Origin: Paracoccaceae bacterium
GTDB lineage: Bacteria > Pseudomonadota > Alphaproteobacteria > Rhodobacterales > Rhodobacteraceae
Direction: 5' to 3'
Assembly (NCBI GenBank): GCA_004153385.1
Contig: SDAL01000004.1
Coordinates: 124,001 to 188,000, forward strand
DNA length: 64,000 bases
Positions 33,732 to 36,817 of this stretch are shown piece after piece (the stretch's first letter is position 1; the number at the start of each line of letters is the position of its first letter). Below the pieces are notes generated by a model that was not told the DNA's origin, ran no database searches, and saw nothing but the letters and a program-made list of their open reading frames with translations. The position numbers and the translations under genes were made by a program.

Positions 33732-34309
33732 GCAGCGGCTGTCCCTGATCTGCCGAGAACAGCCAGCGAGGAGGCATCCACGCCGGACAGAAGGTGTTCG
33801 CCTTCTTCCAGATGGAGCATCTCTGCCAAGCGCGCACGCGCCCGGTTAGCCCGGCTTTTCACGGTCCCTACCTTGACCCCCATGGTCTCGGCAGCTTCCT
33901 CATATGAAAAGCCCGACGCACCTACAAGGATTAGTACCTCACGGTGTTCTGGCGAGAGCTGATCGAAGGCCCGCATGAAATCGTTCATGGCAAGGCGGCC
34001 GTCATGCGCAGGTTTTTCGCACAGGCTTGCCGCGTGGACGCCTTCGGGGTCTGCCACTTCGCGCTTGCGTTTACGGCGGTCGGAATAAAACGTATTGCGC
34101 AAAATGGTGAACAGCCATGCCCGCATGTTCGTGCCGACTTGGAACTTCTCGATATTCGACCACGCCTTGACGATTGTATCTTGAACAAGATCATCAGCAG
34201 AGGCGGAGTTACGGGTCAACGACATGGCAAAGGCACGCAAAGCCGGCAGATGTTCTGGCAATTCATCGCGCGGATCAGCGTTTGCAGTTTGCGTGGAGGG
34301 CGAACTCAT
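33728..34309 (-). CDS. ecfG: General stress response sigma factor, EcfG family
   Basis: 193-residue ECF sigma factor directing RNA polymerase to GGAAC...CGTT promoters. The sigma-2 region reads FAMSLTRNSASADDLVQDTI, then VKAWSNIEKFQVGTNMRAWL with FTILRNTFYSDRRKRKRE. The sigma-4 region reads LSPEHREVLILVGASGFSYE followed by VGTVKSRANRARARL. The start overlaps the nepR stop by 4 bp, so anti-sigma and sigma are co-translated. Held by NepR and released when phosphorylated PhyR captures NepR. Confidence 0.93.
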   Translation of the reverse strand: MSSPSTQTANADPRDELPEHLPALRAFAMSLTRNSASADDLVQDTIVKAWSNIEKFQVGTNMRAWLFTILRNTFYSDRRKRKREVADPEGVHAASLCEKPAHDGRLAMNDFMRAFDQLSPEHREVLILVGASGFSYEEAAETMGVKVGTVKSRANRARARLAEMLHLEEGEHLLSGVDASSLAVLGRSGTAAA

Positions 34310-34464
34310 TTACCGCCCTCCTTTTTACGCAACTGCGCCAGCAAATCATTGAACCGATCTGGAACATCCTCGTTCAAAGCCGTTTCATAAGCTTTTTTGA
34401 GGTTTTGATTGATCTGCTCCTTAATGCTGGCCTTGGACTTGTCGTCAGCCATTTCATTCGTCAT
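34306..34464 (-). CDS. nepR: Anti-sigma factor NepR
   Basis: A 52-residue anti-sigma factor for EcfG. The helix signature IKEQINQNLKKAYETALNED, then VPDRFNDLLAQLRKKE, is the NepR core, which binds either EcfG or the sigma-like domain of PhyR. The ATG at 34464 gives a normal short NepR; an upstream start at 34515 would run through its promoter and add an atypical Cys/Trp-rich tail. First gene of nepR-ecfG-kinase, transcribed from the divergent EcfG promoter region. Confidence 0.9.
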   Translation of the reverse strand: MTNEMADDKSKASIKEQINQNLKKAYETALNEDVPDRFNDLLAQLRKKEGGK

Positions 34465-34496
34465 ATCTAGGTTCCGATCACGCCAGTGTTTTACAT

Positions 34497-34522
34497 GGAA
34501 CCAAACGCAGGACAATGGCGTT
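34497..34522 (+). promoter_or_regulatory. EcfG-type promoter for phyR
   Basis: -35 element GGAAC at 34497-34501, 17-base spacer, -10 element CGTT at 34519-34522: an exact match to the EcfG consensus, 36 bp before the phyR start codon. It overlaps the opposite-strand promoter of nepR almost completely. Confidence 0.8.
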
Positions 34523-34528
34523 AGTTCC
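34504..34528 (-). promoter_or_regulatory. EcfG-type promoter for nepR-ecfG-kinase
   Basis: On the minus strand GGAAC is at 34528-34524, followed by a 16-base spacer and CGTT at 34507-34504, 40 bp before the nepR start. It gives autoregulation of the sigma factor operon and shares its DNA with the phyR promoter. Confidence 0.8.
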
Positions 34529-34557
34529 CCGCAATACGAAATTTTGGGAGTTTCTAC

Positions 34558-35355
34558 ATGCCCACCGATATCGCCGGCGCAATTTCAGCGAACCTGCCGT
34601 ATCTCCGTCGCTACGCGCGTGCCCTGACGGGCAGCCAGGATACCGGCGACCGTTATGCGGCGGCGACCCTGGAAGCGATTCTGGCCGAAGATGCTATTTT
34701 CAAAAGTGAAACAGACCCGAAGGTTGCTTTGTTTTACGCGTTTCACCTCGTCTGGGCCTCGTCGGGCGCGCCGCTTGGTGAAGCCGAAAGCTCTCTGGAG
34801 TCGAGCGCACAAGATCATATGGCCAATCTGACGCCGAACACGCGCGAGGCGCTGTTGCTGCACACGATCGAGGGGTTCCGCTACGAGGAAGTCGCAAAGA
34901 TCATGCAAATCGACAGCCGTGAAGCCGAAGAGCTTGTCGAGATTGCCCTGCGGGAGATGGAAAGCTCTGTCGCAGGCAAGGTTATGATCATCGAGGACGA
35001 AGCCATCATCGCGATGGATATCCGCGCCATCGTTGAAGAGCTTGGCCATCAGGTCACCGGAATTGCCCGTACGCGCACCGAAGCCGTGGAACTGGCATCG
35101 CGCGAGAAACCCGATCTGATTCTGGCCGATATCCAGCTTGCCGATAACAGCTCGGGCATTGATGCGGTCAACGATATTCTGGCCCAGTTCGAGGATCTGC
35201 CGGTGGTATTTATTACCGCATTCCCCGAGCGACTGCTCACCGGCGAACGCCCCGAGCCCGCATTCCTGATCACCAAACCCTATACCGAAACACAGGTGCA
35301 ATCTGCGGTCAGTCAGGCGATGTTCTTTAGCTCGACCGAGACACTTATGGCGTAG
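34558..35355 (+). CDS. phyR: General stress response regulator PhyR
   Basis: Anti-anti-sigma response regulator of 265 residues. The N-terminal sigma-like domain (1-135) contains LPYLRRYARALTGSQDTGDR and LTPNTREALLLHTIEGFRYE. The C-terminal receiver contains VMIIEDEAIIAMDIRAIVEE (acidic pocket), LILADIQLADNSSGID (phospho-Asp), VFITAFPERLLTG (Thr) and LITKPYTETQVQ (Lys). When phosphorylated it sequesters NepR and frees EcfG. Transcribed from its own EcfG promoter, divergent from nepR; a rho-independent terminator follows. Confidence 0.95.
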   Translation: MPTDIAGAISANLPYLRRYARALTGSQDTGDRYAAATLEAILAEDAIFKSETDPKVALFYAFHLVWASSGAPLGEAESSLESSAQDHMANLTPNTREALLLHTIEGFRYEEVAKIMQIDSREAEELVEIALREMESSVAGKVMIIEDEAIIAMDIRAIVEELGHQVTGIARTRTEAVELASREKPDLILADIQLADNSSGIDAVNDILAQFEDLPVVFITAFPERLLTGERPEPAFLITKPYTETQVQSAVSQAMFFSSTETLMA

Positions 35356-35452: not shown

Positions 35453-35478
35453 GGAACAATCCGATATATCGCGGCGTT
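35453..35478 (+). promoter_or_regulatory. EcfG-type promoter for the periplasmic protein gene
   Basis: GGAAC at 35453-35457, 17 bases, CGTT at 35475-35478, exact consensus, 48 bp before the start codon at 35526. Confidence 0.75.
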
Positions 35479-35525: not shown

Positions 35526-36014
35526 ATGAAACGCATTTTGATGATGTCCGGTGCCCTCGTCCTTGCCGCAGGTGCTGCGATGGCCGATGTAACGCCAGTA
35601 AAAGACGTAAAAGTCGAAACCGATATCAAAGCACTCAGCGACCCAGCCGCCCAAGCCTTCTATGAAGGCATGGCAAGCGATCTTGAGGCTCAGATCATTG
35701 CGGATCTGGGCACTGCGTATAATCCCGATAACGCCGCCGGTGCGCGACTGAGCGTCGATATTGACGAAGCCGAACTTGCCAGCACATGGGAGAACCTGAC
35801 AGATGTGGGCCAATCGCGTTTGGGCGCACAGGTCAATGTGTACTCCGATACGGACAACTCGGATTTCAACAACTATACCTTGAGCGTGAGCTATCCTGAT
35901 ATCGCGGTCTACCTGCCCCCCAATTCGGACATCAGCGCACTGACGGTTGATGATCCCGCCTATTATCAGGCCATGATCGAACTCTTCGCACATGAGGTCG
36001 TCGAGCGTCTTTAA
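35526..36014 (+). CDS. Small secreted/periplasmic protein of unknown function, EcfG-controlled
   Basis: 162 residues. The signal peptide MKRILMMSGALVLAAGAAMA ends at an Ala-x-Ala-like site. The mature protein is acidic and mixed alpha/beta: IKALSDPAAQAFYEGMASDL suggests a helix, and repeated short strands follow (ARLSVDIDEAELAS, LTLSV-like and VNVYSDTDNSD). No cysteine, no lipobox, no recognised domain. TGGAGA precedes the ATG. It has its own EcfG-type promoter and its own terminator, so it is probably a monocistronic general stress gene made for the envelope. Confidence 0.8.
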   Translation: MKRILMMSGALVLAAGAAMADVTPVKDVKVETDIKALSDPAAQAFYEGMASDLEAQIIADLGTAYNPDNAAGARLSVDIDEAELASTWENLTDVGQSRLGAQVNVYSDTDNSDFNNYTLSVSYPDIAVYLPPNSDISALTVDDPAYYQAMIELFAHEVVERL

Positions 36015-36198: not shown

Positions 36199-36696
36199 TT
36201 ATTTTGTCAGATGCGCGCGTAGCATCCATGCCATCTGTTCCAACTGGCCGCACACGCCGCCTAGCAGGTCATCTGTTGCGTGGTCGTTATGCTCGTCCGC
36301 CAGCTCGCACACGTCTTGGATACGGGTCGCAATGGCTTCGTGGTCTTTGACCAGATCGCTGATCATTTCTTCAGCAGTGGGTTTGCCATCCAGCTCTTCG
36401 ATCTGCGAGAAGTTGTTGAGCTGTTTAAGGTTCATAGGCGCCAATTCACCCAATGCCCGCACACGCTCGGCCACATCATCGGCGGCTGCAAACAGCGCGC
36501 CATACTGCTCTTCGGTCAGCAGGTGCAGCGGACGGAAAAGCGGGCCTTCGACGTTCCAGTGGTAGAACTGGGTTTTGATCGCCAGCTTGAACACATCGGA
36601 GGCGACTTGGTTCACGGCCTTCGCCATGACCTTCTTCTTCTCGACGCCGGTTTTGACGGTTTCAGCTTTCGGTTTTGCTTGCAGTACATCAGCCAT
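36199..36696 (-). CDS. dps: DNA starvation/stationary phase protection protein Dps
   Basis: Ferritin-like dodecameric protein that binds DNA and oxidises iron(II), lowering peroxide damage; 165 residues. The ferroxidase ligands lie in FYHWNVEGPLFRPLHLLTEE and QYGALFAAADDVAERVRALG. A basic N-terminal tail (KPKAETVKTGVEKKKVMAK) could bind DNA. AAGGAGAG precedes the ATG. An exact EcfG-type promoter lies about 96 bp upstream, so it is a general stress regulon member; own terminator downstream. Confidence 0.95.
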   Translation of the reverse strand: MADVLQAKPKAETVKTGVEKKKVMAKAVNQVASDVFKLAIKTQFYHWNVEGPLFRPLHLLTEEQYGALFAAADDVAERVRALGELAPMNLKQLNNFSQIEELDGKPTAEEMISDLVKDHEAIATRIQDVCELADEHNDHATDDLLGGVCGQLEQMAWMLRAHLTK

Positions 36697-36791: not shown

Positions 36792-36817
36792 AACGACAAA
36801 GGGTGCGGGACCGTTCC
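36792..36817 (-). promoter_or_regulatory. EcfG-type promoter for dps
   Basis: Minus strand: GGAAC at 36817-36813, 17-base spacer, CGTT at 36795-36792. The -35 element falls exactly in the loop of the hairpin at 36799-36830. Confidence 0.75.

Follow-up and report, generated by a model that had tools for sequence, protein, structure and literature searches.

The question raised by this locus is whether two EcfG-type promoters lying on opposite strands of one 32-bp quasi-palindrome, one directed at phyR and the other at nepR-ecfG, are a coincidence of sequence, two ordinary promoters locked together or a device for sharing one sigma factor between an activator and its opposing operon. In the window, i.e. 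the whole stretch of 64,000 nucleotides of DNA that was analysed, phyR is divergent from nepR-ecfG and a sensor kinase gene accompanies them (Table 1), which is the arrangement that defines an EcfG-PhyR-NepR general stress response locus, and the gene order is the same on pDSHI02 of Dinoroseobacter shibae. The nepR product was without match in the NCBIfam search, ecfG is named on the basis of its locus and the Pfam PhyR_sigma2 similarity, and the kinase has PhyK as its top NCBIfam match, with a score under the PhyK cut-off.

A motif scan of the window re-found, with the same coordinates, what a sequence-only reading had reported, namely an exact GGAAC-N17-CGTT promoter on the plus strand and an exact GGAAC-N16-CGTT promoter on the minus strand with 19 bp in common, the former pointing to phyR and the latter to nepR, followed by ecfG and the kinase gene. 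Both agree with the EcfG-type (ECF15) motif GGAAC-N16/17-CGTT upstream of a gene, exactly so on both strands and with conservation in the family; the motif given in print for R. etli is GGAAC-N16-CGTT (PMC3892343). The elements follow one another across the interlock in the order -35(+), -10(-), -10(+), -35(-), and the -10 elements of the two promoters are distinct. The same reading had placed each -35 over the predicted transcription start of the other promoter, which holds under the assumed rule that starts lie 5-8 bases after CGTT.

Table 1. Features of the phyR/nepR locus in window coordinates
Feature	Position	Strand	Evidence or remark
Quasi-palindrome with both promoters, 32 bp	34497..34528	.	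GGAACCAAACGCAGGACAATGGCGTTAGTTCC; arms GGAACCAAACG / CGTTAGTTCC
phyR-facing promoter, GGAAC-N17-CGTT	34497..34522	+	exact
-35 GGAAC, phyR-facing EcfG promoter	34497..34501	+	exact motif match; conserved
-10 CGTT, phyR-facing promoter	34519..34522	+	spacer 17; exact motif match
nepR-facing promoter, GGAAC-N16-CGTT	34504..34528	-	exact
-35 GGAAC, nepR-facing EcfG promoter	34524..34528	-	exact motif match; conserved
-10 CGTT, nepR-facing promoter	34504..34507	-	spacer 16; exact motif match
Segment common to both promoters	34504..34522		19 bp
Predicted phyR transcription start region	34527..34530	+	assumed 5-8 bases after CGTT
Predicted nepR transcription start region	34496..34499	-	assumed 5-8 bases after CGTT
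phyR, anti-anti-sigma response regulator, 265 aa	34558..35355	+	ATG 34558; PhyR_sigma2 2.4e-25, Response_reg; PhyR family NF006623 2.6e-109
nepR, anti-sigma factor, 52 aa	34306..34464	-	ATG 34464; Pfam NepR 6.9e-14
ecfG, ECF sigma factor, 193 aa	33728..34309	-	Sigma70_r2 and r4, PhyR_sigma2; NF009198 'RNA polymerase sigma factor' 8.3e-101
HWE/HisKA_2 sensor kinase, PhyK-like, 598 aa	31935..33731	-	HisKA_2 3.1e-23, HWE_HK 1.2e-7

Other exact EcfG-type sites are present nearby, one at 36792-36817 (-) ahead of a Dps-like gene (36199-36696, -) and one at 35453-35478 (+) upstream of an open reading frame of 162 aa without Pfam match (35526-36014, +); their motif and placement suggest further EcfG targets near phyR. 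The plus-strand site recurs at a near-equal distance from phyR in one of nine related loci scanned (L188). In six of the nine, an antisense exact EcfG-type pattern occurs within phyR, about 174 bp past its start in L186, L187, L189, L190 and L192 and about 177 bp in L185; it is absent from the window and is possibly a coincidence of coding sequence.

A single exact EcfG match is weak evidence, because the window's own genome contains 57 matches to GGAAC-N16/17-CGTT and as many as 129 to the reversed control. Genome-wide enrichment of the single motif was dropped as support for the same reason, although the window itself holds eight matches to the EcfG pattern (spacers 15-18) against 2.0 expected. 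The significance resides in the pairing of the promoters and in its conservation. Ten GGAAC-N20..24-GTTCC dyads are found in the own genome, and only the dyad between phyR and nepR is composed of two exact EcfG sites. A second exact pair on opposite strands, at C4:286456-286483 (L265), has an offset of 2 bp; being self-symmetric, it is a case in which one match largely entails the other. It falls in the 3'-terminal part of a long open reading frame on the minus strand, some 120 bp upstream of a response-regulator open reading frame. In mononucleotide-shuffled upstream regions an interlocked pair was obtained in 0 of 1840 cases.

Conservation was followed in 198 family genomes, each from a different genus. 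The strict dyad pattern GGAACNNAACG-N8..12-CGTT-N1..3-GTTCC, in which both sites are exact and one linker is fixed, occurs in 41 of the 198, at one place in each, and in all 41 that place is 43-129 bp upstream of a phyR match, while the reversed control of the pattern gave no match in the same 198 genomes. The proportion 41/198 understates the share among genomes bearing the locus, since the pattern is overly strict and the PhyR matches of many genomes are weak response regulators. Therein, of 97 matches listed with E up to 1e-32, 90 were used as family loci, the seven excluded being partial genes (G114 twice, G142 twice, G031) and weaker second copies (G004:C400, G171:C2). When one mismatch per promoter and spacers of 15-18 are allowed, overlapping opposite sites are present in 79 of these 90 loci, both exact in 41, and 77 of the 79 best overlapping pairs have a spacer of 16 or 17 on both sides. 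Spacers were limited to 16-17 in the scan of 92 loci (the 90 plus two more family loci), in the states placed on the PhyR tree, in the scan of named loci and in the analysis of element composition. Under that limit and a nearest-pair rule, an outer length of 31-33 bp is seen in 76 of the 92 loci, 40 of them with both sites exact; two have other spacings, and in 13 no pair was found at one mismatch or fewer per promoter. One further locus, L082, carries the interlocked pair beside an extra, nearer pair, bringing the interlocked total to 77/92, and the exact counts of 41/90 and 40/92 differ because L082 is tallied under this second, nearer pair in the latter. An extra exact nepR-facing EcfG site outside the interlock is observed about 107 bp upstream of phyR in L082 and about 128 bp upstream in L019.

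Loci of named organisms give a similar picture, with 76 of 79 interlocked and 45 with both sites exact; these are the best 80 of 554 confirmed loci, one being dropped for too little upstream DNA, and ten of the 79 have a 60-bp stretch identical to a locus of the first set. The three that are not interlocked come from Oceanicola granulosus, Palleronia aestuarii and Thioclava sp. SK-1. Cereibacter johrii, which we take to be a close relative of R. sphaeroides, shares an identical exact interlocked site with the family genome G051. Thus, the comparison across relatives by which the overlap was to be judged finds it kept in most of the family, and not the loss in close relatives that would have spoken against it. 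On these comparisons of sequence, the two motifs are conserved as promoters for two divergent units and their interlock is not a product of chance.

Within the genus of the window the dyad is kept in all 16 loci, and variation is concentrated in the -10 elements: both are exact in nine of the 16, the phyR -10 reads AGTT in six, and both are weakened (AGTT and AATT) in one locus with 92% PhyR identity. The genus includes 17/17 and 16/16 spacer forms, which differ by one base. The closest named record among the best 80 of 554 is Thioclava sp. SK-1 (L185, 92% PhyR), in which the dyad persists with both -10 elements weakened, followed by further Thioclava. The element of L267, a genus member, is the same as that of L185, with AGTT and AATT, and the two are perhaps the same organism.

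Natural gene separations assign the site on each strand to its own gene. In three family loci (L036, L039 and L051) phyR has no adjacent ecfG or nepR, and in all three the exact phyR-facing site is kept and the opposite site is gone. A search for ecfG in these three genomes found it elsewhere in two; the third genome, 64% complete, yielded no ecfG. The best ecfG copy of G062 comes after a NepR-like open reading frame and is faced by an exact EcfG site, a reverse site being absent. In G173 the exact EcfG site is 234 bp upstream of ecfG; no NepR was identified at this detached locus, and the one-mismatch reverse sites that are present do not stand in a 31-33 bp arrangement with the exact site. 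As far as such loci can be read from their motifs, the overlap is dispensable for either unit retaining a promoter.

Outside the family, other layouts prevail. The order-level outgroup search listed matches only in genomes of the family (f1), 27 genomes being without match. The class-level search gave 63 matches besides the window's own, of which 62 were fetched (G208:C1:2676043 was omitted), and after removal of two repeats of earlier loci and two family members 58 outgroup loci were available. Sites placed back to back, with their -35 elements 6-9 bp apart, are found in 12 of the 58, from eight families, four being exact and the rest having one or two mismatches in total; the interlocked form is found in four, which are the four f30 loci fetched, each of which has a single mismatch, located in the phyR-facing promoter. 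A further four are self-symmetric with an outer length of 27, in eight the sites are farther apart, and in 30 a scan with spacers of 16-17 found no pair. In S. meliloti, the sites between rsiA1 and rsiB1 are likewise back to back, with the -35 elements 5 bp apart. Polymerases at such back-to-back sites may also touch. Loci with -35 elements 5-9 bp apart are L095, L096, L105, L106, L107, L111, L113, L114, L115, L119, L120, L148 and L183. Self-symmetric 27-bp dyads upstream of phyR, with one or two mismatches in total, were observed in L123, L124 and L126 (f25), L144 (f95) and L031 (f1); these mismatched dyads, in L031 and the four outgroup loci, were left out of the interlocked counts. In a PhyR tree with 145 rows, a well supported branch (98) sets the family apart from the rest, and a single change between the interlocked and back-to-back states is sufficient, the tree being unrooted, made by a quick method and weak at 52 of 142 inner branches. 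An independent origin of the interlock in f30 is not claimed, because one change suffices on this unrooted tree.

The nearest known kind of element is the bidirectional promoter of E. coli (Warman, Forrest, Stringer, Wade, Grainger 2026, PMC12825309), which resembles the element described here in that one pseudo-symmetric sequence gives rise to RNAs in both directions and a bound polymerase excludes a second, an exclusion that would be expected here from the geometry. In the E. coli promoters, as far as the available text of that paper describes them, the -10 is common or overlapping and starts are mostly 18, but also 10 or 23 bp apart, unlike the present case, in which two complete ECF promoters interlock as -35/-10/-10/-35, predicted starts lie some 30 bp from each other and a single alternative sigma factor, itself encoded by one of the outputs, would serve both sides. 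By the definition of Warman and Grainger, the opposing elements lie near enough for a clash of polymerases to be predicted, with 19 bp in common, and a shared or overlapping -10 is lacking, so that the element would act like a bidirectional promoter with a different layout. With rsiA1-rpoE2 / rsiB1 of S. meliloti the locus shares genes, orientation and motif. The transcription starts mapped for both S. meliloti units follow RpoE2 (EcfG-type) promoters, and both units depend on rpoE2 (PMC3616915), a sigma dependence that is demonstrated there and presumed here; unlike the element of the window, the S. meliloti sites do not interlock. In alphaproteobacteria both units are described as usually carrying EcfG promoters (PMC4814048), and in Rubellimicrobium thermophilum predicted promoter arrows based on the same consensus are similarly drawn at both GSR loci, with promoter overlap unmentioned in the accessible text (PMC12148442). 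No statement of a phyR/nepR promoter overlap was met in the literature searched, most subscription journals being beyond that search, and absence from print is thereby not established. Known in kind as a bidirectional promoter, the element would appear to be new in that its two complete ECF promoters interlock, and do so at the locus that controls the same sigma factor.

In all likelihood, the element is a genuine bidirectional EcfG promoter. What it does is best described, with a probability that we place slightly above even, as two interlocked EcfG-type promoters with exclusive loading, whose split of firing would be set by sequence rather than by EcfG once loading is frequent. One promoter would drive phyR and the other nepR-ecfG-kinase, both depending on EcfG in this species as well, and the EcfG holoenzyme would load in a single orientation at any time, because the -35 and -10 of each promoter sit within the footprint of the other. 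An RNA polymerase footprint would span the entire element, and loading over the whole 32 bp should therefore be exclusive; the earlier claim that one polymerase footprint would block the other is thus backed by the geometry and by the established footprint size. Under stress, both units would be induced by the same released EcfG, with positive feedback via EcfG and PhyR and negative feedback via NepR, and at frequent loading the proportion of activator versus sigma/anti-sigma firing would follow from the two promoter sequences and not from the amount of EcfG. In an occupancy model with a five-fold difference in affinity, the overlapping pair holds the phyR:nepR ratio at 0.2 at every holoenzyme level, whereas with separate promoters the ratio drifts from 0.21 to 1.0 with the holoenzyme level. 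Hence the firing split would be fixed if occupancy is high, and ratio control is plausible in terms of this model. Of the built-in ratio control or switch that had been proposed from sequence, the ratio part is retained as plausible and the switch part lacks support, the same holoenzyme serving both directions with no favoured side. Measurements in R. sphaeroides argue against a simple constant ratio in that organism: phyR mRNA is reported to rise 2-3 fold in response to singlet oxygen, superoxide and diamide and not to membrane stress, and ecfG (RSP_1272) mRNA to rise only with membrane stress and in a PhyR-dependent manner, as bulk mRNA at 7 minutes (PMC5830050). This pattern may be due to extra promoters or RNA turnover. 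Other points that tell against the sequence-set split are the low competition of E. coli bidirectional promoters at basal strength, the inexact -10 elements in some of the closest relatives, the 13 of 92 family loci in which no pair was found, the second nepR-facing site of L082 and L019, and the lineages with parted units, which evidently do without the overlap.

The strongest competitor to a sequence-set split, and a distinctly possible one although we would not give it even chances, is that both promoters are real and their overlap has no regulatory role, the layout persisting by itself as indels are purged. It is a serious rival because indels in the common spacer alter both promoters, as is illustrated by the 17/17 and 16/16 forms of the genus, where one base changed in the common centre alters both spacers. 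It is also in line with the intact-looking single promoters retained by units that have parted, with the sufficiency of a single state change on the PhyR tree and with the little competition reported at basal strength among the five sigma-70 bidirectional promoters tested in E. coli, for which competition appears once one direction is strongly activated and interference reduced noise at one locus (PMC12825309). On the other hand, extra promoters could free the layout, yet L019 and L082, with their second nepR-facing site, retain the interlock, and the span of distances between the dyad and the phyR match argues that the region is not frozen overall.

A true switch, in which the competing promoters commit cells to either phyR or nepR-ecfG expression, is improbable. 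Physical exclusion is likely and the two units of R. sphaeroides respond to different stresses (PMC5830050), but nothing favours one orientation, since both use the same holoenzyme and their products alter only the common pool of free EcfG, which would yield a split and not bistability; moreover, the R. sphaeroides bulk mRNA could reflect other promoters.

Less probable still is that a dimeric transcription factor uses the quasi-palindrome as its operator, or that the sequence acts as an RNA/DNA hairpin, in place of two promoters. Its arms of 10-11 bp invite this reading, and the element strand folds slightly better than its shuffles do, with a z of -2.41 and 6 of 200 shuffles as good. The composition of 144 interlocked sites, which are conditional on one mismatch or fewer per promoter and fall into eight linker geometries, points elsewhere. 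On both strands of the commonest form (53 sites), GGAACC and the GTT core hardly vary and the base before CGTT is preferentially G, whereas the eight bases at the centre are variable, so that the conserved letters are those of the -35 GGAACC and the -10 (G)CGTT on both strands. Complementarity of mirror positions at four centre offsets was not above shuffles. The one free base per arm is complementary in 45 of 88 cases versus 38.3 expected, a weak excess that 251 of 5000 shuffles matched or surpassed. Symmetry beyond promoter needs, as expected of a transcription-factor operator, was thus not found, and the variable, non-symmetric centre gives the pattern of two promoter constraints rather than of an operator; the half-sites also persist as single promoters after the genes part. 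The operator was set aside as having no extra symmetry beyond the one weak position, and a hairpin or RNA family was set aside given the modest fold and the lack of an Rfam match in a search of 34300-34700. That only one promoter is real and the other a chance match is hardly credible: frequent as single matches are in the genome, both sites are kept jointly across the family.

Returning to the two interlocked promoters with exclusive loading, a wider reading may be put forward tentatively, and we regard it as doubtful: that the family uses a device which places the activator and the anti-sigma/sigma operon on one exclusive landing site, so that DNA sequence would fix how much PhyR is made relative to NepR-EcfG under strong induction and shield this ratio from the EcfG level, possibly with lower noise, and that the back-to-back arrangement elsewhere is an alternative solution to the same wiring. 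Whether the alphaproteobacterial stress response is switched on depends on how PhyR, NepR and EcfG are balanced. If the proposal is true, having activator and inhibitor/sigma transcription exclude one another each time a polymerase loads would set this balance by simple physical means, and the interlocked promoters of one family versus the back-to-back promoters of others would offer a natural comparison for regulatory polymerase exclusion.
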